Shown piece after piece: positions 2,187 to 12,781 of a DNA stretch of 38,553 nucleotides. Every line of letters starts with the position of its first letter. Position 1 is the first letter of the stretch. A program made the translations under genes and the position numbers. This DNA is from Flavobacteriales bacterium (GTDB lineage: Bacteria > Bacteroidota > Bacteroidia > NS11-12g > UBA955): contig CANHQZ010000016.1 in assembly GCA_947463125.1 (NCBI GenBank), positions 1 through 38,553 of the forward strand. The letters run 5' to 3'. The notes below the pieces were generated by a model. That model was not told the origin of the DNA. It saw only the letters and a list, made by a program, of their open reading frames with translations, and did not search any database.

Positions 2187-3824
2187 ATGCGACGTATCAT
2201 TCCGTTTTTATTGCTTTTTCTGTCAATTTCTTCCCGTACCCTGATTTTAAAAGCTCAAAATGAAACCCTCTACACAGCAGGCAAAATTTATATTGGAGAT
2301 ACGGCCATGACTGTTGTAGAAGCCATGGTATGTGAAAATGATAAAATTGTATTCACAGGACCTGCAGAACTTGCCCGTGCGCTGTACCCAAAAGCAAAGA
2401 CAGTTGATTTTAAAAAACAATATATCTATCCCGGCTTTATCGATGCCCACTGCCATTTTCTGGCATGGTGCAAAGGTTTGAAAGAAGCTGATCTGGTGGG
2501 CACAAAAAGTGAAAAGGAAGTTATCAAGCGGCTACAGAAATTCGCCAAAACCACCACCCGCAGCTGGATTGTGGGCCGTGGCTGGGACCAGAACGACTGG
2601 AAAAACAAAAACTACCCGACACTGACAGCGCTGGATAAAGCATTTCCGAACACACCCGTGTTTTTAAAACGGATTGATGGACATGCTGCATGGATTAATA
2701 CCGCAGCCATTAATGCACTAAAACTGGATGTGAACCAGAGGGTTTCCGGCGGAGAATTTATTTTCAAGGACGGAAAGTTCACCGGCATTATCATAGACAA
2801 TGCGGTTGACCTCGTTTCCCCCGCAGTTCCACCGCTTCCTGAGGCCGAACTGAATAGTGCCGTGGTGGAAGGCGCAAGAAAGTGTTATGCTGCCGGACTT
2901 ACCACCCTCGACGAAGCCGGATTAACAACCGAAGATATCCAATACCTGAGTAAGCTGCAGCAATCAGACAAGTTAAAGTTGAGGATGTACGCCATGCTGA
3001 GCGCCTCACCGCAGAGTTTTGCCTACGTATCGGAAAACGGGCTGACCAACAACGGAATGATGCATGTGGGTGCGGTAAAATTCTACCTTGATGGCGCACT
3101 GGGTTCACGCGGAGCACTGATGAAAAAAGACTATTGTGACCGTTTGGGCCACAAAGGCCTATTGCTGAACAACCTGCAGGAATTTGAGAAATATTGCTAT
3201 TTCCTTTCCCAGAGAAGCTGGCAGGTATGTGTGCACGCCATCGGCGATAGTGCAAACGCACTTGCCCTGCAGATATTTGGCAAGCTGAGAAATCATAATG
3301 AAGGTCTGAGGTGGCGTATAGAACATGCTCAGATATTGGACCCCAAAGACTTTAAACTTTTCGGCAAATATGGCGTTGTGCCCAGCGTTCAACCCACCCA
3401 TGCCACCAGCGATGCTCCCTGGGTGCCTTCACGCATCTGTGAAAACAGGCTTCAGGGTGCCTACAATTACGCTGAGCTTTGCAAACAGGCCGGCCTGGTA
3501 GCACTGGGAACCGACTTTCCGGTGGAAGACATCTCTCCCATCAAAACCTTTTACAGCGCGGTAACACGAAAAGACATATCAGGAAACATCAAATCTCCCT
3601 TTCAGCCCGAGGGCGCACTTACACGCAAACAAGCCTTGCTGGGCATGACCCTGTGGGCCGCGTATGCAAACCATGAAGAAAATGACAAGGGCTCGCTGGA
3701 AACCAATAAATACGCGGATTTTGTGGTATTGGATACGGATTTGATGCTTGCTTCGGAAAAAGCCCTGAAAAAAGCCAGGGTAAAAACCACGATTATCGGT
3801 GGCAAAGTGGTTCATCAGAAATGA
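2187..3824 (+). CDS. amidohydrolase family protein (YtcJ-like, Amidohydro_3), exported
   Basis: This 545-residue protein has a signal peptide (MRRIIPFLLLFLSISS) and the layout of metal-dependent YtcJ-type amidohydrolases. It has an N-terminal beta-sandwich strand, then the metal-binding HxH motif in YPGFIDAHCHF, RIDGHAAWIN, VCVHAIGDSAN, RIEHAQIL and the late Asp motif GTDFPVE. The end returns to the beta-sandwich (KYADFVVLDTDLM...). Length is normal for the family (about 540-570). Members hydrolyse C-N bonds in cyclic or acylated amines; the substrate here is unknown. The signal peptide puts it in the periplasm or on the surface. It overlaps the next gene by 4 bp (ATGA), so the two are probably made together. 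Confidence 0.9.
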   Translation: MRRIIPFLLLFLSISSRTLILKAQNETLYTAGKIYIGDTAMTVVEAMVCENDKIVFTGPAELARALYPKAKTVDFKKQYIYPGFIDAHCHFLAWCKGLKEADLVGTKSEKEVIKRLQKFAKTTTRSWIVGRGWDQNDWKNKNYPTLTALDKAFPNTPVFLKRIDGHAAWINTAAINALKLDVNQRVSGGEFIFKDGKFTGIIIDNAVDLVSPAVPPLPEAELNSAVVEGARKCYAAGLTTLDEAGLTTEDIQYLSKLQQSDKLKLRMYAMLSASPQSFAYVSENGLTNNGMMHVGAVKFYLDGALGSRGALMKKDYCDRLGHKGLLLNNLQEFEKYCYFLSQRSWQVCVHAIGDSANALALQIFGKLRNHNEGLRWRIEHAQILDPKDFKLFGKYGVVPSVQPTHATSDAPWVPSRICENRLQGAYNYAELCKQAGLVALGTDFPVEDISPIKTFYSAVTRKDISGNIKSPFQPEGALTRKQALLGMTLWAAYANHEENDKGSLETNKYADFVVLDTDLMLASEKALKKARVKTTIIGGKVVHQK

Positions 3825-4906
3825 GAATAATCGCTCTCATAGTCTTTTTTACGTTGTTGCAAGGGGCAACGGCGCAAACCATCAAAAAATGGTACAACCT
3901 CTCATCACCCCTCACCGAAATCAGCGGTATGACAATTTGGCAAAACCGCTACTTTGCCCATGGTGACGGAGGTTCACCGGCCATGGTTTTTGAACTGGAT
4001 GCCAAAGGAAAAATTATTGATACCACTACCCTGCTGCAACCCAATACTGACTGGGAAGACATGTCTGCCAATGCCACGCATTTCTTCATTGGTGATTTTG
4101 GCAACAACAACGGTACCCGAAAAGATTTGAAAATACTCAAGTTCCCCGCAGACAGCCTGGGTAAAAAAAGGGTTATGCCCGAAGTAATTTCTTTCAGCTA
4201 CGCCGATCAGACCGACTTTACTTCCAGCCAGTTCACCAATTTCGACTGCGAAGCCATGGTAGCAACCACGGATTCTCTTTATCTGTTTAGCAAAAGCAAA
4301 GTCTCCGGTATTTGCAGGGTGTATTCATTGCCTGTTGTTTCGGGAAATTATGTGGCCGGCATCAGCGATACCGTGCAACCTCCTTTCTGGGTAACCGGAG
4401 CCCATTTGCAAAACAACGAACTAATGCTGTGTGGTTATGTTCCAAACATTATGTTTTCACTTACACCCCTTTTTTATCATTGCAAGATGGTGAATGGCCG
4501 TATACAGCATGGTTCGGGAAAAGCCTACAATCTGACGTACACCGGCACAAAACAAATTGAAACGGTTTGCCGGTCAACAACAGGCAGTATTCTTCTGAGT
4601 GGGGAAGCCTACAGCGGCGACAGCGCAGCCGTTTTTGAACTGATATTGCCTGCAGCAAAAACAAACCGTACGAAAACCCAGGGGCATGGACTGATTCCCA
4701 ATCCCGCCGGAGACAAGATTCAATTAAAAAATAACCTTCCGGGAGGCTATTGCGGCATTTACAAACCTGACGGACAACTCGTTAAAAATCTCACACCGAA
4801 TATCTACGGTGAAATTAATATCGCACAGTTGCCGGGTGGATTATATTGGATAGAATACATGGATGACCGCGGCAAAAAGGTGTTTGAACGCCTGCTGAAA
4901 CTGTAA
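3821..4906 (+). CDS. T9SS type A sorting-domain protein with beta-propeller-like body
   Basis: This 361-residue secreted protein has a signal peptide (MRIIALIVFFTLLQGATAQ). The body (about 20-280) is rich in beta strands and resembles a propeller, with repeated Gly/Asp turns such as AHGDGG and FIGDFGNNNG. The last 75 residues form a T9SS type A sorting domain: LIPNPAGDKIQLKN, then INIAQLPGGLYWIEY and the basic, hydrophobic end FERLLKL. It should therefore cross the outer membrane through the type IX system. I do not recognise the body as a known enzyme. Overlap with the amidohydrolase stop by ATGA argues for co-translation. It meets the M28 peptidase gene tail to tail across 38 bases. Confidence 0.82.
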   Translation: MRIIALIVFFTLLQGATAQTIKKWYNLSSPLTEISGMTIWQNRYFAHGDGGSPAMVFELDAKGKIIDTTTLLQPNTDWEDMSANATHFFIGDFGNNNGTRKDLKILKFPADSLGKKRVMPEVISFSYADQTDFTSSQFTNFDCEAMVATTDSLYLFSKSKVSGICRVYSLPVVSGNYVAGISDTVQPPFWVTGAHLQNNELMLCGYVPNIMFSLTPLFYHCKMVNGRIQHGSGKAYNLTYTGTKQIETVCRSTTGSILLSGEAYSGDSAAVFELILPAAKTNRTKTQGHGLIPNPAGDKIQLKNNLPGGYCGIYKPDGQLVKNLTPNIYGEINIAQLPGGLYWIEYMDDRGKKVFERLLKL

Positions 4907-4944: not shown

Positions 4945-6381
4945 CTAATCCAGTTCCTGGTCAAGAATAACAATCATAACGGCAACGGCAGCAGCGCCTA
5001 AATGCAGTTCACGTTTGTTTACGCTTTCAAAAACATCGGTTTCCGAGTGGTGTACATCAAAATAGCGCTGTGAATCCGGGATAAACCCCACCAGTACTGC
5101 ATTGGGATTGATTTTACGGATAGGACCAATATCAGCGCCACCTCCGCCCTTTTCAATTTCACCGATTCCATTAGCATCCAGCAGGGCTTTGTACTTCAAC
5201 GCTTTGGGAAGAAATGCACTGTCCACACCAAAGCCTCTTGGTGTAAATCCGCCGCGGTCACTTTCCAGCGCTGCCACATGCTTTTCATTGGTTTTTCCGG
5301 CAACAGCAGCATATTCAGTGGCGCCACGAAGTCCGTTTTCTTCATTCATCCACCACACACAGCGCAAGGTGTGTCGTGGTTGATAACCAATGCTTTTTAA
5401 CAACCGCAGGGCCTCAAAGGCATGCATACAGCCCGCCCCGTCATCATGTGCACCTTCACCCTGGTCCCAGCTGTCGAAATGGCCGCCAAATGCTATAATG
5501 GATTTGGGATATTTTGAACCGCGGGTTTCTGCCACCACATTGGCCGAGGGAGCATCGGGCAGGGTCTGACAGCCCAGCTGCATGGTAAGCTGCAATCCCG
5601 GATCCTGCTGTATTAGTTTATCCAGCAGATTTGCAACGGCAGTAGCCACAGCCATCGCGGGAATTTTGGGCTGTTTATCATCGTAAATCATCACACCGGT
5701 ATGGGCGTGCAAATCACAACGGTTGCTCATACTGCGCACCAGCACAGCCACAGCCCCGTAGGCCGCCGCTTTGGAAGCGCCGTTCACACGCTGCCCCACG
5801 CAGGCTCCATAAGCCTTAAACGTATTCAGATATGTTTCGGGAAACGGCCTGTTCAGCAATACCATCTTGCCTTTTAAGGCACCCGCCTTTCCCAGGCTGT
5901 CCATCTGCGCATCGCTGTGCACGCTTACGATTCCGGCCTGCAACTTTCCTTTCGTCCCTACAGAACCTCCAAGCGCTACCGCCGGTATGCGGTGCTGCTT
6001 AGCCGGTTTTAAAGGCAGTTCCTCAAAAGCTTCGCAATTGTAATCCTGTAGTTTTTCGCCTTTTATGGCGGCATTAAAAATGGTGGATGAAAAGACCAAT
6101 GATTCGGTTTTACTTCGCTCCCATCGCGGAACCATCACCGGCTGCAGATACACAGAGTCAAATCCGTAGGTTGATAGCATTTGTTTGCCCCAGGCCACGG
6201 CTTTTTCCGCCTGCGGACTGCCCGAGAGACGCGAGCCAATGGTTTTGCACAATTCACCCAAACGGGCATAGGCCTGACCATTTTCCAAGGCTTCGTTAAA
6301 AACCTTTCTAAAGAATGCAGAATCTACCTGTGCCTGAGTTAGAGAGGCTGAGAAGCACAAACATAAAATTACCAGTCGCAT
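4945..6381 (-). CDS. M28 family zinc metallopeptidase (carboxypeptidase Q-like), exported
   Basis: This 478-residue protein has a signal peptide (MRLVILCLCFSASLTQAQ). A protease-associated-type insert lies in the middle (GALKGKMVLLNRPF, then GAVAVLVRSMS). The M28 catalytic core then carries zinc ligands in GGHFDSWDQGEGAHDDGAG and MNEENGLRG, and a late YFDVHHSETDVFE. This arrangement matches the carboxypeptidase Q/PGCP branch of M28, which cleaves dipeptides or removes terminal residues. It acts in the periplasm or outside the cell. It is transcribed away from the TetR/paa operon across a 102-base divergent gap. A near-match to the Bacteroidetes -7 box (TATCTTCG, 6394-6387) lies seven bases from the start, but without a good -33. 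Confidence 0.9.
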   Translation of the reverse strand: MRLVILCLCFSASLTQAQVDSAFFRKVFNEALENGQAYARLGELCKTIGSRLSGSPQAEKAVAWGKQMLSTYGFDSVYLQPVMVPRWERSKTESLVFSSTIFNAAIKGEKLQDYNCEAFEELPLKPAKQHRIPAVALGGSVGTKGKLQAGIVSVHSDAQMDSLGKAGALKGKMVLLNRPFPETYLNTFKAYGACVGQRVNGASKAAAYGAVAVLVRSMSNRCDLHAHTGVMIYDDKQPKIPAMAVATAVANLLDKLIQQDPGLQLTMQLGCQTLPDAPSANVVAETRGSKYPKSIIAFGGHFDSWDQGEGAHDDGAGCMHAFEALRLLKSIGYQPRHTLRCVWWMNEENGLRGATEYAAVAGKTNEKHVAALESDRGGFTPRGFGVDSAFLPKALKYKALLDANGIGEIEKGGGGADIGPIRKINPNAVLVGFIPDSQRYFDVHHSETDVFESVNKRELHLGAAAVAVMIVILDQELD

Positions 6382-6440
6382 GTCTGCGAAGATAGGAATT
6401 GGACACTTTGTCTTAAATCGGTGATTTAATAATTAAAAAT

Positions 6441-6471
6441 TTGTTTTTATTAATTATTGACCCTAAGTTTG
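6441..6471 (+). promoter_or_regulatory. Bacteroidetes-type promoter of the tetR-paa operon
   Basis: TTG at 6441-6443 is separated by 20 bases from TAAGTTTG at 6464-6471. This fits the known Bacteroidetes sigma-ABfr consensus (TTG at -33, about 19-21 bases, TAnnTTTG at -7). The start of transcription would fall near 6476-6480, only a few bases before the ATG at 6484. Confidence 0.75.
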
Positions 6472-6475
6472 CAAT

Positions 6476-6491
6476 ACTAACAAATGTTAGT
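6476..6491. promoter_or_regulatory. perfect 7-2-7 inverted repeat, likely operator of the TetR regulator
   Basis: ACTAACA-AA-TGTTAGT is a perfect palindrome with a 2-base centre. It spans the predicted transcription start and the first codons of the regulator (ATG at 6484). Size and symmetry suit a TetR dimer. A bound repressor here would block its own operon, giving autoregulation. Palindrome and position are seen directly; the assignment is inferred. Confidence 0.6.
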
Positions 6492-7089
6492 TAGTGAAAA
6501 AATATCACCCAAGACATCTGCCCGAAAGGCACAGATAATGGATGTTTCGCTGGAAATGATGCGAAGGCTCGGATACCAGGGTACATCCATGCGGGACATT
6601 GCTTCCGGCATGAAGATGGAAGCGGCCAGTTTGTACAACCATATTTCCGGCAAGGAAGACATTCTGGCTGAAACCTGTTTCCGCATGGCGGAAAGACTAC
6701 TTACCGGCCTGGCCGATGTGAATGATATTTATTTCAACCCCGTTGAAAAACTCTCACTTGCCGTTAAGAACCACGTTAATATTCTCACCGAAAACACCCA
6801 CGCAGGCTGGGTATTTGTGCATGAATGGCGACACCTGAGTGATGAAAACCGCAGTCGGTTTGTTGCCATGCGCGATGCCTACGAAAAAGGATTTAACACC
6901 ATACTCAAACAGGGTGAAGACGAGGGTGTTTTTCAGGATGTAAACAACAAATTCGCTGTGCTCACCATTCTGGCATCGCTGAATTGGGTGGTAGAATGGT
7001 ACAAACCGCAAGGCGGCATGACACCCGAACAAATCGCTGATAAACTGACAGAATTTATCCTCAGCGGACTCAAAAAAGACAACAATTAA
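6484..7089 (+). CDS. TetR/AcrR family transcriptional regulator of the paa operon
   Basis: This 201-residue protein has an N-terminal TetR helix-turn-helix at about residues 12-60 ([16 protein letters not shown], then [16 protein letters not shown]). A helical ligand-binding domain with the conserved-looking [11 protein letters not shown] segment follows. It is the first gene of the cluster and ends 11 bases before paaA, so it is probably co-transcribed with paaA-D. By analogy with other phenylacetate regulators of the TetR family, the inducer may be phenylacetyl-CoA or a downstream CoA ester (inference). The ATG at 6484 lies inside the putative operator and within about 8 bases of the predicted transcription start, so the message would be nearly leaderless. 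Confidence 0.88.
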
Positions 7090-7100
7090 TACAATATACC

Positions 7101-8090
7101 ATGTACGGAAACGCTTATGTAGAAAACACCGGCAACAACAACAGCCTCACAGCAGGCGAAGATCCGGTGAAACTGGCCGAATTTGAAGCCCGCATTGCTG
7201 CCGGCGAAAAAATTGAGCCCCAGGACTGGATGCCCAAAGAATATAGAAGACAGCTGATTCGTATGATTGAACAGCATGCCCATTCCGAGATTATTGGTTC
7301 CTTGCCTGAAGGCACTTGGATTACCCGTGCGCCCGGTTTTCGCAGAAAGCTGGCACTCATGGCCAAGGTACAGGATGAAGTAGGTCATGCACAGTTGCTT
7401 TACTCTGCCTGCGAAACCCTGGGCAAAAGCCGTGAGGATATGATCAACGACCTCATCAACGGCAAAAGCAAGTACAGCAATATTTTCAACTATCCTGCCG
7501 TAACCTGGGCAGACAGCGCAGTGATTGCATGGCTTGTGGATGCCGGTGCCATTATCAATCAGCTTACCAACAGCAAAGGCAGTTATGGCCCCTATTGTCG
7601 TGCTTTGGACCGGATTTGCGCCGAAGAATCCTTCCACCTCAAATATGGCCACGATAATGTGGTATTTCTGGCAACAGGCACTCCAAAACAGCGCGAGATG
7701 GTGCAGGAAGCCATGAACCGCTGGTGGGCTCCGCTGATGCACTTCTTTGGCCCAAGCGACAAGATTTCTCAGCACACCGAAACGCTGATGAAGTGGAAAG
7801 TAAAAATGGCCAGCAACGACGATATGCGCCAGCAGTTTCTGGACATGTACGTTCCCAAAATATGGGACCTGGGCCTCACTGTCCCCGACCACAACCTGAA
7901 AAAGAACGAAGAATCCGGCAAATGGGAATATACAGAACCGGATTGGGAGGAATTCAAGCGCGTGATCAACGGCGATGGCCCCTGCAACAAGGAAAGGCTA
8001 GCCGTAAGGCGTATGGCCGAAGAAAAAGGCCGCTGGGTGCGCAATGCCATCTTGAAAAAAGATGCCCGCTATGTAGCGCCCCTCGCATAA
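7101..8090 (+). CDS. paaA: 1,2-phenylacetyl-CoA epoxidase, catalytic subunit A
   Basis: PaaA is the diiron oxygenase subunit that epoxidises the ring of phenylacetyl-CoA in the cytoplasm, working in the PaaABCE complex. The 329-residue length is normal. Diiron ligand motifs are visible: E63 in HSEIIGS, the ExxH pair E93-V-G-H96 in [11 protein letters not shown], and E176-S-F-H179 in [15 protein letters not shown]. The [10 protein letters not shown] tail is typical of the family. It follows the TetR gene by 11 bases. Unusually, paaB does not come next: a T9SS protein gene starts 12 bases downstream. Confidence 0.96.
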
Positions 8091-8102
8091 AGCCACTTTG
8101 CT

Positions 8103-9515
8103 ATGAAATCCCCAATAATTGTAAAGCTTGGATTATTACTTTTGTGTATTTCAGGCATAGTAGCCAAAGCCCAAAGTATTCCCAATCCTTATTTTGAATG
8201 GTTTGACAGTAAAATCAGGTTAACGCCCGGAACTTGGCAAACACAAGGTATTGTCTCCAAAAATAAAGGCATCCGACTTTCAAACAGCAAAATCAGCGAT
8301 CTATATTCTACAGCATCATTGTTAAAATTTGATGACTCCGGTTCCCAGGCGCCTGCCTTCAAAATCAACGGGACTCCGGATTCAATAAAAGTAACATTTG
8401 AATCGGCATTGGATGGAGACACTGCATTCATTTACTTTTTGGCCATGAAATCAGGAGACTCAACACCGGCTGTTTTTCAGGAAATGATGATACATGGAAC
8501 ACACAGCCAGAAAACACAAAGTTTTGCGTTGGACTATATCCATCCTGATGCCGGAGTGGTGTGCGATACTGCTTACATTATTATCTATTCAGCAAATCCC
8601 GTAAACGGGCCACTTGGCAATGGATATATCAGTATCTCAGGCCTGCAGTTATTTGCCGCAAACAACCCCGTCAATGCTATTCCAAATCATGATTTTGCTA
8701 CCTGGAATGAAACAGGCATTACCTTTCCCGGCGACTGGACAAACCACCATATGCTTGCTTTTAACAACGGATTGAATGGGAATTTCGATTCACGCAGCAA
8801 CAATGCGCACACCGGATCACATGCCCTGTGGCTGAAAGGTTTTATAAACACTGCACCCAATGCAAAAAACGACTCCTTCCCTGCATTTTGCATTACCACC
8901 CGCAGCAGGAACATGATTGACCTGATTACACCCGATGCGGATCAGCCATCCTTCACTTACAGCGGACGTCCACAATCATTCCGCGGCTACGCGAAAACAG
9001 ATCTGGTAAAAGGCGACAGGCTGATGGTGTTTGTAAACCTGTTTAGCTCAGACAGCATTGTAGGTTCCACCATTGTTGCTATCGACAGCACCAATGGTAA
9101 ATACACGCTCTTTGAAAAGGATATTAACTGGTTGCCCGGCTACACCGGAAACTGCGAAAAAGCCACTATCGCCATTTATATCACCGACTCAACCGGTTTA
9201 AAGATGGTAAGTCCTGAAAGTCAGGCATGGATAGACAATGTCGAATTGGGCAATTTTGGTGTAAAAACCCAAAAAGCAGAGGCCTTGTCCCATTTCAGCA
9301 TATTCCCGAATCCTGCCAAAGACCATACCCGTATCACAATTACCGGCAAGCAACAAACCTCCCTGTATCTGATGAACACAGAAGGTAAGATTTTGCGCCA
9401 TATGAGCCGTATGAAAAATGGCGACAACTTATCGCTTACAGGCTTGTCAGCAGGTATGTATTTACTGGTTTCGCCCGAAACCGGAATAACAAAAAAACTC
9501 ATATTACAACCATGA
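8103..9515 (+). CDS. T9SS-secreted protein with two PNxxFxxW-type modules, embedded in the paa operon
   Basis: This 470-residue protein has a signal peptide (MKSPIIVKLGLLLLCISGIVAKAQ). Two related modules follow. The first begins IPNPYFEWFDS and the second, near residue 197, begins IPNHDFATWNETG; each continues with a Gly-x-Trp motif (TPGTWQT, FPGDWTN). Such PNxxFExW modules look like carbohydrate-binding or PCMD-like beta-sandwiches. The last 75 residues are a T9SS type A sorting domain (FSIFPNPAKDHTRI ... LTGLSAGMYLLV ... KKLILQP). It sits between paaA (12-base gap) and paaB (ATGA overlap), so it is co-transcribed and translationally coupled with a cytoplasmic enzyme complex. No enzyme motif is visible and the role is unknown. 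Confidence 0.85.
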   Translation: MKSPIIVKLGLLLLCISGIVAKAQSIPNPYFEWFDSKIRLTPGTWQTQGIVSKNKGIRLSNSKISDLYSTASLLKFDDSGSQAPAFKINGTPDSIKVTFESALDGDTAFIYFLAMKSGDSTPAVFQEMMIHGTHSQKTQSFALDYIHPDAGVVCDTAYIIIYSANPVNGPLGNGYISISGLQLFAANNPVNAIPNHDFATWNETGITFPGDWTNHHMLAFNNGLNGNFDSRSNNAHTGSHALWLKGFINTAPNAKNDSFPAFCITTRSRNMIDLITPDADQPSFTYSGRPQSFRGYAKTDLVKGDRLMVFVNLFSSDSIVGSTIVAIDSTNGKYTLFEKDINWLPGYTGNCEKATIAIYITDSTGLKMVSPESQAWIDNVELGNFGVKTQKAEALSHFSIFPNPAKDHTRITITGKQQTSLYLMNTEGKILRHMSRMKNGDNLSLTGLSAGMYLLVSPETGITKKLILQP

Positions 9516-9886
9516 TTATTAAATCATTAGACCCCAGAATAACCCGAGCCGGAATAGACGACGAATCAAAAGACGGCACACAGCAACCCCTTGATCAGTG
9601 GCACACATATGAAGTGTTTCAGCAGAAAAAACGCGGCACACATCATGTGCATGTGGGAAGCTTACACGCTCCTGATGCGGAACTGGCTATATTATTTGCC
9701 AAAGAGCAATACGCCCGCAGAGGACAATGCGTAAACCTTTGGGTCGTAAAAACCGCAGATGTATTTGCTACCGAATACGAAGATGAGGACATTTTCGCAA
9801 CAACCCCGGAAAAGAAATACCGTGAACCTGAAGTATACAAGGTGATGGACAGAATTCAGGCATTCAAGGCAAAACAAAATAGCTAA
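9512..9886 (+). CDS. paaB: 1,2-phenylacetyl-CoA epoxidase subunit B
   Basis: PaaB is a small bridging subunit that helps assemble the PaaA-PaaC heterodimers. The core matches the family: QWHTYEVFQQKKRGTHHVHV, then VGSLHAPDAELA and AKEQYARRGQCVNLWVV. At 124 residues it is somewhat longer than the usual 95-115, because of an N-terminal extension (SLDPRITRAGIDDE...). The ATG at 9512 overlaps the stop of the T9SS protein gene (ATGA), so the start is well supported. paaC follows after 3 bases. Confidence 0.95.
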   Translation: MIIKSLDPRITRAGIDDESKDGTQQPLDQWHTYEVFQQKKRGTHHVHVGSLHAPDAELAILFAKEQYARRGQCVNLWVVKTADVFATEYEDEDIFATTPEKKYREPEVYKVMDRIQAFKAKQNS

Positions 9887-9889
9887 ACC

Positions 9890-10660
9890 ATGGAATTAAC
9901 AGAAAGACACGTTGAGGGGCTGAAAGAGCTTCTCTATAAAATGGCCGATGATTTATTGATTCTGGGTCACAGAAACAGTGAATGGACAGGCCTTGGACCT
10001 GTATTGGAGGAAGATATTGCCTTTAGCAGTATGGCACAGGATAAACTGGGACAAAGCCTTGCTTTGTATGAATTGCTGCATGAGCTGGGAGAAAATATTC
10101 CGGATATTGTGGCGTTTACCCGCAATGACAATCAGTTTCACAATTGCCATCTGGTAGAAATGCCTATCGGGGAATACGATTTTAGCCTGGCGCGTCACTT
10201 TTTCTTCGACCATGCGGATGCCATCCGCTTTGCCATGCTCGAAAATTCTTCCTTTGAAGGTATATCCATGGTTTCCAGAAAATTCAGGGGTGAAATAAAA
10301 TATCACACCATGCATGCCGATGTGTGGATGAAGCAGCTAAGCCATGGAACCGAAGAAAGCAAAGCCCGCATGCAGTCTGCCATTAACGCAGCCTTTCCTT
10401 TGGCACTGGGCATTTTTGAGGAAGGCGAATATGAAGCCGAACTGAAAGAAGCCGGTATTTTTGAAGGTGAAGCTGCCCTGAAAAACCAGTGGCTGGAAAA
10501 GGTGAATAATGAGCTTAAAAAGCATGGATATACCTTGCCTGATGCGGATGATGTAACTCCTGCTCTGGGTGGCAGAAAAGGCTTCCATACAGAGCATCTG
10601 CAGCCATTGCTGAATGAAATGAGCGAGGTGTTTCAGATTGATCCCGGCGCTGACTGGTAA
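9890..10660 (+). CDS. paaC: 1,2-phenylacetyl-CoA epoxidase structural subunit C
   Basis: PaaC has the same ferritin-like fold as PaaA but does not bind the catalytic diiron site; it stabilises PaaA. The 256-residue protein shows family landmarks: DDLLILGHRNSEWTG, LEEDIAFSSMAQDKLGQ (where the ExxH of PaaA is replaced), and RKFRGEIKYHTMHADVWMKQL. The C-terminal region has GGRKGFHTEHLQPLL. It lies 3 bases after paaB and 5 bases before paaD. Confidence 0.95.
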   Translation: MELTERHVEGLKELLYKMADDLLILGHRNSEWTGLGPVLEEDIAFSSMAQDKLGQSLALYELLHELGENIPDIVAFTRNDNQFHNCHLVEMPIGEYDFSLARHFFFDHADAIRFAMLENSSFEGISMVSRKFRGEIKYHTMHADVWMKQLSHGTEESKARMQSAINAAFPLALGIFEEGEYEAELKEAGIFEGEAALKNQWLEKVNNELKKHGYTLPDADDVTPALGGRKGFHTEHLQPLLNEMSEVFQIDPGADW

Positions 10661-10665
10661 CAAAC

Positions 10666-11151
10666 ATGGAGAACCGCACCGCAGCCATCTATCAGCTTCT
10701 GGAAACCGTAATGGATCCGGAAATTCCCACCATTTCGCTGGTAGATCTGGGTATTGTAACCGGTGTGGAATGGGATGACGAAAATCCCCATGTAAAATTA
10801 ACACCCACTTTTTCCGGTTGTCCTGCGCTTCGCGTGATGGAACAACTCGTACACGAAAAGCTCAAAGCATCCGGTTTTGACAATCCAAAAGTGAGTACCA
10901 GTTTTGAGGTAGCCTGGAACAGCAACATGATTTCGGAAAAAGGTTTGGCTGCATTGAAAAAACATGGCCTTGCTCCCCCGCCAAAGCACGCAGGATACAT
11001 CGAACTGGATGTGTTGAGTGATATTGCCTGTCCGCTGTGCGATAGTCGAAATACGACCATGCAAACGCCATTTGGACCCACTTTATGCCGCAGCATGCAC
11101 TATTGCAAAAACTGCCACAATGCCTTTGAGGCATTCAAGCCGGTTACTTAG
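10666..11151 (+). CDS. paaD: phenylacetyl-CoA epoxidase maturation protein PaaD (DUF59 plus zinc ribbon)
   Basis: PaaD is thought to help mature the metal centres of the epoxidase. Residues 1-100 form a MIP18/DUF59 domain (VMDPEIPTISLVDLGIV, then LTPTFSGCPALRVM). The C-terminus has a zinc-ribbon-like set of cysteines: CPLC near residue 122 and a later C-x5-C-x2-C (CRSMHYCKNC). The length of 161 is normal. It is the last gene of the operon here. The reductase paaE, usually adjacent, is absent. The 3' end overlaps the convergent subtilase gene by 8 bases, leaving no room for a separate terminator. Confidence 0.94.
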   Translation: MENRTAAIYQLLETVMDPEIPTISLVDLGIVTGVEWDDENPHVKLTPTFSGCPALRVMEQLVHEKLKASGFDNPKVSTSFEVAWNSNMISEKGLAALKKHGLAPPPKHAGYIELDVLSDIACPLCDSRNTTMQTPFGPTLCRSMHYCKNCHNAFEAFKPVT

Positions 11152-12781
11152 GCATTTCAGATATAAATATCCTTGATTGAATAATCCCTTTTGAGGAATT
11201 TACTTGTAACACATAAAAGCCGGGAGACAAATCGGGAAGCCTTATTTTATTTCTTTCTATGACATTCAGCTCGGCTACTTTCCGGCCATCCATAGCACAT
11301 AGTATTACCCTACCATTTACCTGTGGCATGCCATCCCAAACAATTACCTGTCCGGGCAATGTAGGATTGGGGTAAATTTTGGTCCTGGTTCTCAGATTTT
11401 GATTTACAGAGGTGCACCAGACATTCATTTCAGTCCTTGCCTTCTCTATGTTCAGGCGACCTTCAGTTGCGCATTTTCCGTTCAGCGAAGGCAGTATATC
11501 AACACCCCGTAAAATCCATGTTCTCAGCAATTTCGCGGCAGAATCGGGTTGATTTTTATGAACAGTCCAAAATGAATCACATACTTCAGCGCACAGCAAG
11601 GCTGCCGCGGCTCCTACCTGCGGTGCGGCAAAGGAAGTGCCGCTTACGGCTGCATATGGCCCGTTTGGACCATTATAGGAACTCAATTGCGTGGTATAGG
11701 CTCCCTGCCCCGGCGATGCCAAATCTACATGCTCGGCGCTGTAACCCGAATTCATCCGGTTGTCATTCGCATCGGTATTGTTTACCACAAGGGTAAATAA
11801 ACTCGGGCACAGGCTTGGTATATCACCGGCTACACCCACATCCACATTGCTGTTGGTTGTAGCTATGCTGCTGATTATTCCCGCGTTACCCAGAGAATCG
11901 TACAGACTGCACCAGATGGGCTCTTCATTGGGGAATGCACCATCAATACCAACAGATGTATTCAAAGCCACAATAAATGCGCCTTTCCTGCCATCGGTTT
12001 GCATGTACAGCTGTTTCATGCGCAATGCGTAGAGCATGCTTCTTATTACGCCCAAATCTCCGTCGACTCCATTGAGCGGATAGCACAATAATGGCATTAG
12101 TTTCACATGCCAGTTGATGCCGGAAACCCCGGTTTTATTGTTTCCTGCAGCCCCAACAATGCCGGCTACCTCTGTTCCGTGGGCATACAAACTTTGGGTT
12201 GTAAAAGTTCTGTTATTGGAATCGCCGCCATTCCATCCGCGGTAATCGTCCACATACCCGTTGGAATCGTCATCCATGCCGTTCCAGGGTATTTCATTTC
12301 GGTTAAACCACATATTGGGTTTAAGATCCGGGTGTACAGTATCCATTCCATCATCTACCAGTGCTACAACGAGTGTATCGCCTCTTCTGTTTACCCCGCC
12401 GGTATTTCTATCCCAAAACCAGGGCGCACGAATGGTACTCAGGTAGTTCTGGGCACTGAATAAAGGATCGTCAGGATTTTTTCTGCGTGTAATTTGGTGA
12501 CAGCGCTGCACACCCTGAACGCCTTCAATGGCATTGAGTGTTCGCAAAAACAAGCCCGATAACTGATCTTGACTTACTTGCAGGCGATATAACCCAAATG
12601 CGGCATCTACCGGATAAAGCACTAAACCTTTCTGCTGCGACAACTTTGACGAAACGCCAGCAAATTGCCTGGAATCCAGCTTCAGCAATACCGTTGAATT
12701 TTGCGCATACAGATTCTGCAGCATCCCAACCAGAAAAAGCAGCAGAAAATGATATTTTGTATTACCTAGCAACCTTATCAA
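11144..12781 (-). CDS. S8 family subtilisin-like serine protease with T9SS sorting domain
   Basis: This secreted subtilase has 545 residues if the TTG at 12781 is used. A signal peptide (HFLLLFLVGMLQNLYAQ) and a propeptide-like region come first. The peptidase domain has Asp143 (ALVDDGMDTVHPD), His201 (AHGTEVAGIVGA) and Ser383 (SGTSFAAPQVG). An acidic insert (NGMDDDSNGYVDDY, about 167-180) may bind calcium. The C-terminus is a T9SS type A domain (TKIYPNPTLPGQVIV, then LPDLSPGFYVLQV). No ATG gives an intact signal peptide; the candidates are TTG at 12781 or TTG at 12772. The only internal ATG nearby (residue 20) would destroy it. A TAGCTTTG box overlaps the upstream TTG, which favours the 12772 start or an unusual initiation. 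Confidence 0.88.
   Translation of the reverse strand: MIRLLGNTKYHFLLLFLVGMLQNLYAQNSTVLLKLDSRQFAGVSSKLSQQKGLVLYPVDAAFGLYRLQVSQDQLSGLFLRTLNAIEGVQGVQRCHQITRRKNPDDPLFSAQNYLSTIRAPWFWDRNTGGVNRRGDTLVVALVDDGMDTVHPDLKPNMWFNRNEIPWNGMDDDSNGYVDDYRGWNGGDSNNRTFTTQSLYAHGTEVAGIVGAAGNNKTGVSGINWHVKLMPLLCYPLNGVDGDLGVIRSMLYALRMKQLYMQTDGRKGAFIVALNTSVGIDGAFPNEEPIWCSLYDSLGNAGIISSIATTNSNVDVGVAGDIPSLCPSLFTLVVNNTDANDNRMNSGYSAEHVDLASPGQGAYTTQLSSYNGPNGPYAAVSGTSFAAPQVGAAAALLCAEVCDSFWTVHKNQPDSAAKLLRTWILRGVDILPSLNGKCATEGRLNIEKARTEMNVWCTSVNQNLRTRTKIYPNPTLPGQVIVWDGMPQVNGRVILCAMDGRKVAELNVIERNKIRLPDLSPGFYVLQVNSSKGIIQSRIFISEMPK

Follow-up and report, generated by a model that had tools for sequence, protein, structure and literature searches.

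A predicted T9SS cargo protein with two jelly-roll modules is encoded between paaA and paaB in phenylacetyl-CoA epoxidase operons of Bacteroidia

The stretch of DNA analysed here (the window; 38,553 nt) is contig C16 of a draft Flavobacteriales genome (G000; 2.34 Mb, 85 contigs, 98.9% complete). Its plus strand carries a TetR-type regulator gene, four paa genes and a further gene, here called X, in the order paaR(TetR)-paaA-X-paaB-paaC-paaD (Table 1). PaaA, PaaB, PaaC and PaaD all score above the curated NCBIfam cut-offs and are thus genuine subunits of the phenylacetyl-CoA epoxidase system. As the first-pass annotation had described, the gene that separates paaA from paaB is intact and encodes a protein with a predicted signal peptide and a T9SS sorting domain; only 12 nt lie between the paaA stop at 8090 and its start, and its stop codon TGA and the paaB ATG at 9512 share bases in ATGA. 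The convergent S8 subtilase neighbour of the operon is conserved in the genus, and also in family members without X in the operon (L047, L048, L051, L052). Elsewhere in the window, an amidohydrolase gene (2187-3824) overlaps a second T9SS-tail gene (3821-4906) by 4 nt, so paaB is not alone here in overlapping a T9SS gene in this way.

Table 1. Features in and around the paa operon, in window coordinates
Feature	Position	Strand	Evidence or remark
Exported M28 peptidase, divergent neighbour	4945..6381	-	PF04389 E 6.4e-21; kept in the genus and in G013
Promoter-like elements, Bacteroidota-type	6441..6471	+	TTG at 6441-6443 and TAAGTTTG at 6464-6471, 20 nt apart; upstream of operon; read from sequence
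PaaR-type operator palindrome ACTAACAAATGTTAGT at paaR/tetR start	6476..6491	+	core CTAACN4GTTAG at 6477-6490; candidate PaaR site CTAACAAATGTTAG
paaR-like TetR regulator, 201 aa, first gene of operon	6484..7089	+	TetR_C_24 E 2.6e-35, TetR_N; best solved relative 3vpr E 2.1e-27
paaA, phenylacetyl-CoA epoxidase catalytic subunit	7101..8090	+	TIGR02156 456 bits; 4iit PaaA E 4.7e-108
X, exported-type tandem jelly-roll T9SS protein, 470 aa	8103..9515	+	intact ORF
X signal peptide region (predicted), ~residues 1-23, then Gln24	8103..8171	+	sequence and alignment
X jelly-roll module 1, ~residues 24-190	8172..8672	+	AlphaFold model; homologous to module 2
X jelly-roll module 2, ~residues 191-388	8673..9266	+	AlphaFold model; homologous to module 1
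X T9SS type A C-terminal sorting domain, residues 400-470	9300..9512	+	PF18962, TIGR04183; mirolase CTD 8qb1 Z 11.3
paaB, 4 nt shared with X (ATGA)	9512..9886	+	TIGR02157 88.2 bits
paaC	9890..10660	+	TIGR02158 224 bits
paaD	10666..11151	+	TIGR02159 159 bits
T9SS subtilase (S8), convergent neighbour	11144..12781	-	PF00082; TIGR04183 over cut-off; Por_Secre_tail sub-threshold, 25.8 vs 27 bits

The ends of X resemble those of an exported protein. Pfam recognises in it only the T9SS sorting domain Por_Secre_tail (PF18962; residues 400-467, E 1e-8, 35.8 bits against a cut-off of 27), and TIGR04183 scores 34.8 bits (cut-off 23). At the N-terminus, a hydrophobic stretch followed by AKA-Q, which the AlphaFold model renders as a helix at residues 5-20, reads as a type I signal peptide. 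Gln24 is invariant in an alignment of 23 relatives of X, all of which also have Por_Secre_tail. The genome encodes the T9SS marker GldK (TIGR03525, 527.9 bits against 350) and contains 78 sorting-domain matches. X is therefore best read, from its sequence, as an exported-type protein and a T9SS type A cargo. The alternative that X stays inside the cell and works with the epoxidase as a chaperone, scaffold or regulator, which would mean that its ends only mimic export signals, draws on one argument, the position between paaA and paaB. We consider it highly improbable in view of the predicted signal peptide, the invariant Gln24, the sorting domain in 23/23 relatives with its T9SS-domain fold, the marker and the many cargo genes in the genome, and the X copies (described below) in genomes where paaA and paaB were not found.

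An AlphaFold2 model of X based on 14 sequences (mean pLDDT 84.1, pTM 0.63) has two jelly rolls and a C-terminal beta domain, and the two jelly-roll modules are homologous by profile-profile comparison (probability 99.8%, E 1.2e-30), which bears out the earlier description of a two-module protein. Foldseek with the whole three-domain model returned low TM-scores only, and folds were compared with VIA-align. The best matches of X were 3s30, 3hbz, 4jrl and 4het (Z 16.7-15.3; for the jelly-roll part, residues 21-385, against 3s30, Z 16.7 over 195 residues, rmsd 3.5). These four entries, named only 'putative glycoside hydrolase' and 12-17% identical to X in sequence, we take to be members of the PCMD family (PF13201). 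The PF13201 profile itself weakly matches 3 of the 23 relatives (E to 1.2e-5) and gives no match to the window X at E 1. Next in rank came the CBM16 module 2zew (Z 12.6) and other carbohydrate-binding modules (3oeb; 2xom, CBM61), at Z 11-12.6. The fold that the model has in common with PCMD proteins and carbohydrate-binding modules suggests that X may bind a ligand.

We searched 108 genomes of the order for the positions of PaaA and PaaB and with a profile of X, and took counts by reading the resulting tables. X adjoins paaA and/or paaB in 37 genomes from 13 genera and two families, with 11 carriers in family f1 (g1, g2, g8, g11, g12) and 26 in f2 (g15, g17, g18, g20-g24); the arrangement also recurs in independently assembled, named MAGs. 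All 6 members of the window's genus that have paaA carry X, with the frame broken near residue 355 in one (G004); in another member, G001 (85% complete), paaA, paaB and X are all absent. The first-pass annotation had argued against a recent random insertion, and the occupation of the same site in 37 genomes, including every paaA-bearing close relative, agrees with it. A draft genome in 85 contigs might in principle hold a chimeric join, or X might be a recent strain-specific insertion; the same arrangement in many independent assemblies and genera rules these out for practical purposes and makes either hardly conceivable, and the GC content of X is near that of the window (0.437 vs 0.459). No relative of X was found on plasmids. 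Beyond the order, among the same-contig paaA-paaB pairs of the window's PaaA type listed for 247 genomes drawn from the class, a gap of ~1.4 kb or more occurred in one genome, G291 of another order, where it holds X plus a cytochrome P460 gene.

The protein itself has diverged far more than PaaA. PaaA of carriers in the order is about 80-97% identical to the window's, whereas identity in X falls to ~20%. Within the genus, X changes as fast as or faster than the other T9SS proteins of the window (identity 47-72% vs 68-74%). Its dN/dS is ~0.11 against G003, a value near synonymous saturation; against G002 and G005 synonymous sites are saturated and give no value. Four genomes (G039, G043, G046, G053) have two X copies in tandem.

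The junction with paaB is overlapping in many carriers. Eighteen of 33 operon copies of X that were checked end in ATGA; sorted by reading, 14 of these ends immediately precede paaB, 3 precede a second X copy and 1 (G025, L057) is off the paaB frame. A further nine copies, all from one branch of f2 (L029, L030, L031, L037, L056, L156-L159), share with paaB an overlap of exactly 28 nt, which arises through an upstream in-frame ATG and makes PaaB longer by ~ten residues. An ATA start for paaB in f2 was considered and dropped, the in-frame ATG accounting for the 28-nt overlap. In G035 (g15; L059), which nests among carriers in the PaaA+PaaC tree, X is absent and PaaB has a similar N-terminal extension, best read as a scar of X loss.

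Trees of X include copies outside the operon, and those of genera g4, g5 and g6 are placed inside the operon copies of f1. A topology with operon and moved copies as one clade was not rejected (lnL +2.3 vs the free tree, p-AU 0.59), and one with operon copies alone as a clade was rejected (p-AU 2e-5), since the moved copies fall within them; the groups were named after the tree had been seen, so these p-values serve as a guide. The free X tree needs 3 label changes; the PaaA+PaaC tree needs 6, compared with 22 in shuffles. The trees are compatible with one origin, after which X was lost several times and left the operon once. Alternatively, paa operons could have acquired X repeatedly from a larger pool of paralogous T9SS jelly-roll proteins, the position of X reflecting convergence at an insertion-prone junction, an origin that would fit with either of the functional readings discussed below. 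Paralogues of the X family elsewhere in many genomes of the order would have supplied such a pool, the label changes on the two trees leave room for repeated entry, and the X of G291 sits on a long branch. We nevertheless regard repeated entry as unlikely, since the single clade of operon and moved copies fits slightly better than the free tree and overlaps with paaB recur in both families.

The moved copies adjoin a T9SS protein gene (L041-L045, L145, L149), with PKD repeats in the two products tested. A PaaR-type operator was tried as a mark of these copies and rejected, none being found within 300 nt upstream. Six genomes with a moved X (G021, G023, G088, G090, G094, G095), some of them incomplete assemblies, yielded neither paaA nor paaB; the persistence of X there implies that it can work without the epoxidase.

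The adjacency of paaA and paaB, which the first-pass annotation had treated as the norm, is not inviolable. A 23S_rRNA_IVP four-helix gene lies between them in 12-13 of 80 named loci (L079-L081, L084, L091, L096, L104, L115, L120, L126, L128, L137; identified with Pfam in L081, the others being alike by sequence), in records from other Bacteroidia and from Ignavibacteria/Chlorobiota. In G153 and G309 the same junction holds a gene for a protein of 335-339 residues (L021 1814-2821, L022 1670-2689), the L021 copy of which has no Pfam or NCBIfam match. A gene for a polytopic membrane protein of ~456-471 residues is tightly packed between paaB and paaC at 11 loci of another lineage (L085, L089, L099, L101, L103, L108, L110, L111, L114, L131, L139; one cut by a contig end). 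The copy in L103 has no Pfam or NCBIfam match, and membership of the X family was rejected, the X profile giving no match. The paaA-paaB junction thus accepts insertions, and any case for function built solely on position is weaker for it.

X may accordingly be a passenger with a function unrelated to phenylacetate, retained at a site that accepts insertions and gives usable expression, and at which the overlap with paaB would make careless deletion costly. This is the main rival to a functional reading, and we regard it as quite possible without being probable. It would explain why relocated X persists where paaA and paaB were not found, why unrelated genes occur in the same or the next junction (23S_rRNA_IVP, the ~470-residue membrane protein, the proteins of G153 and G309 without a Pfam match) and why X has been cleanly lost in many genera. 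It sits less easily with the retention of one exact position and of overlapping frames across two families despite divergence to ~20% identity, or with the tandem duplication of X in place in the four genomes named above.

Regulation bears on the same question. The promoter-like elements upstream of paaR resemble the Bacteroidota consensus, TTG-N17-20-TAnnTTTG. In 1.4 Mb of fetched loci, some of them overlapping, CTAACN4GTTAG has 90 matches, and 89 of these stand at the start of paaR. The 90th is directly upstream of paaB in G180 (family f38; L027, L028), where paaA and paaBCD form separate loci and this second PaaR-type operator lies just 5' of paaB. At its conserved positions the motif agrees with the consensus of the Thermus PaaR operator, CNAACGNNCGTTNG (PMC6651687). 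No forward terminator-like site was found on the plus strand in 6382-11300. With a single conserved operator at the paaR start and no such site, co-transcription of paaR-paaA-X-paaB-C-D is likely. The coupling of X to the operon proposed in the first-pass annotation thus stands as regards probable co-transcription, but the overlap with paaB is in itself no proof of selection for coupling.

The suggested link to aromatic catabolism is plausible, but several observations count against it. Relocated X occurs, as noted, in genomes where paaA and paaB were not found, and in G000 PaaK (TIGR02155) had no match and the best score for PaaZ (TIGR02278) was 97 bits against a cut-off of 562.8, although replacement enzymes are possible. 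PaaK was absent or very weak in 21 other genomes checked. A full-length PaaE-like relative is encoded elsewhere in G000 (C60:3320-4396, 316 bits against a cut-off of 421).

Our preferred reading, which we hold to be probable, if only mildly so, is that X is an old, PaaR-co-regulated exported protein of the binding type that belongs to the PaaR-repressed operon without being part of the epoxidase. The X gene would have come to lie between paaA and paaB, in the simplest case through a single event predating the split of the order's two families, and would now stand under the single promoter and operator of the operon, overlapping paaB. Build-up of an aromatic acyl-CoA would lift PaaR from the operator, upon which the cell would produce cytoplasmic PaaABCD and send X through Sec and the T9SS to its surface or into the medium. 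Outside, X would most likely bind a polymeric or glycosylated ligand and may help the cell hold on to material that releases aromatic substrate when degraded, for instance by the exported M28 and S8 peptidases encoded next to the operon. A functional tie to phenylacetate is plausible. Against our preferred reading stand 34 genomes of the order (30 in f1, 4 in f2) that share the window's PaaA type but have paaA and paaB adjacent, with no X in the operon, and the identity of only ~20% between X of the two families. A bolder extension, which we find rather doubtful, is a PaaR-controlled surface system in which a sensor of aromatic acyl-CoA couples a ring-opening enzyme to an exported tandem binding protein, such that cells on a polymer or protein that yields aromatics would put out more receptors.

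An exported protein inside a paa operon was not found in the literature searched. Searches combining phenylacetate, T9SS and operon returned two unrelated species descriptions only, the word Bacteroid- is absent from surveys of paa clusters published in 2009 and 2026, and in a text search the letters PCMD turned up only in unrelated senses. It is rare for an unrelated gene to persist between the genes for core subunits of one enzyme complex, and here X has stayed across two families. If the tie is functional, it would provide a first handle on a link between surface binding and aromatic metabolism in these mostly uncultured Bacteroidia, with paaR-type operators as a marker for finding surface receptors. 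If X is a passenger, the locus would be a clean case of operons tolerating and then shedding foreign genes, with the N-terminal extension of PaaB as the scar.

X shares features with several known systems and differs from each. Like other T9SS type A cargo, it combines a predicted signal peptide with a C-terminal TIGR04183/PF18962 sorting domain, but its gene lies inside a core cytoplasmic enzyme operon. It has a jelly-roll fold in common with the PCMD proteins of Bacteroides (PF13201), from which it differs in having two jelly rolls and a T9SS tail and in lacking a PF13201 match of its own. CBM16 and the related modules (2zew, 3oeb and 2xom) are alike in fold, with no match in sequence. Finally, the PaaR (TTHA0973)-paaABC operon of Thermus thermophilus likewise begins with a TetR-type regulator gene, followed by paaA, paaB and paaC, and has a palindromic operator; there, however, paaA and paaB are consecutive and an exported protein is absent, whereas the window operon has X between them (PMC6651687).
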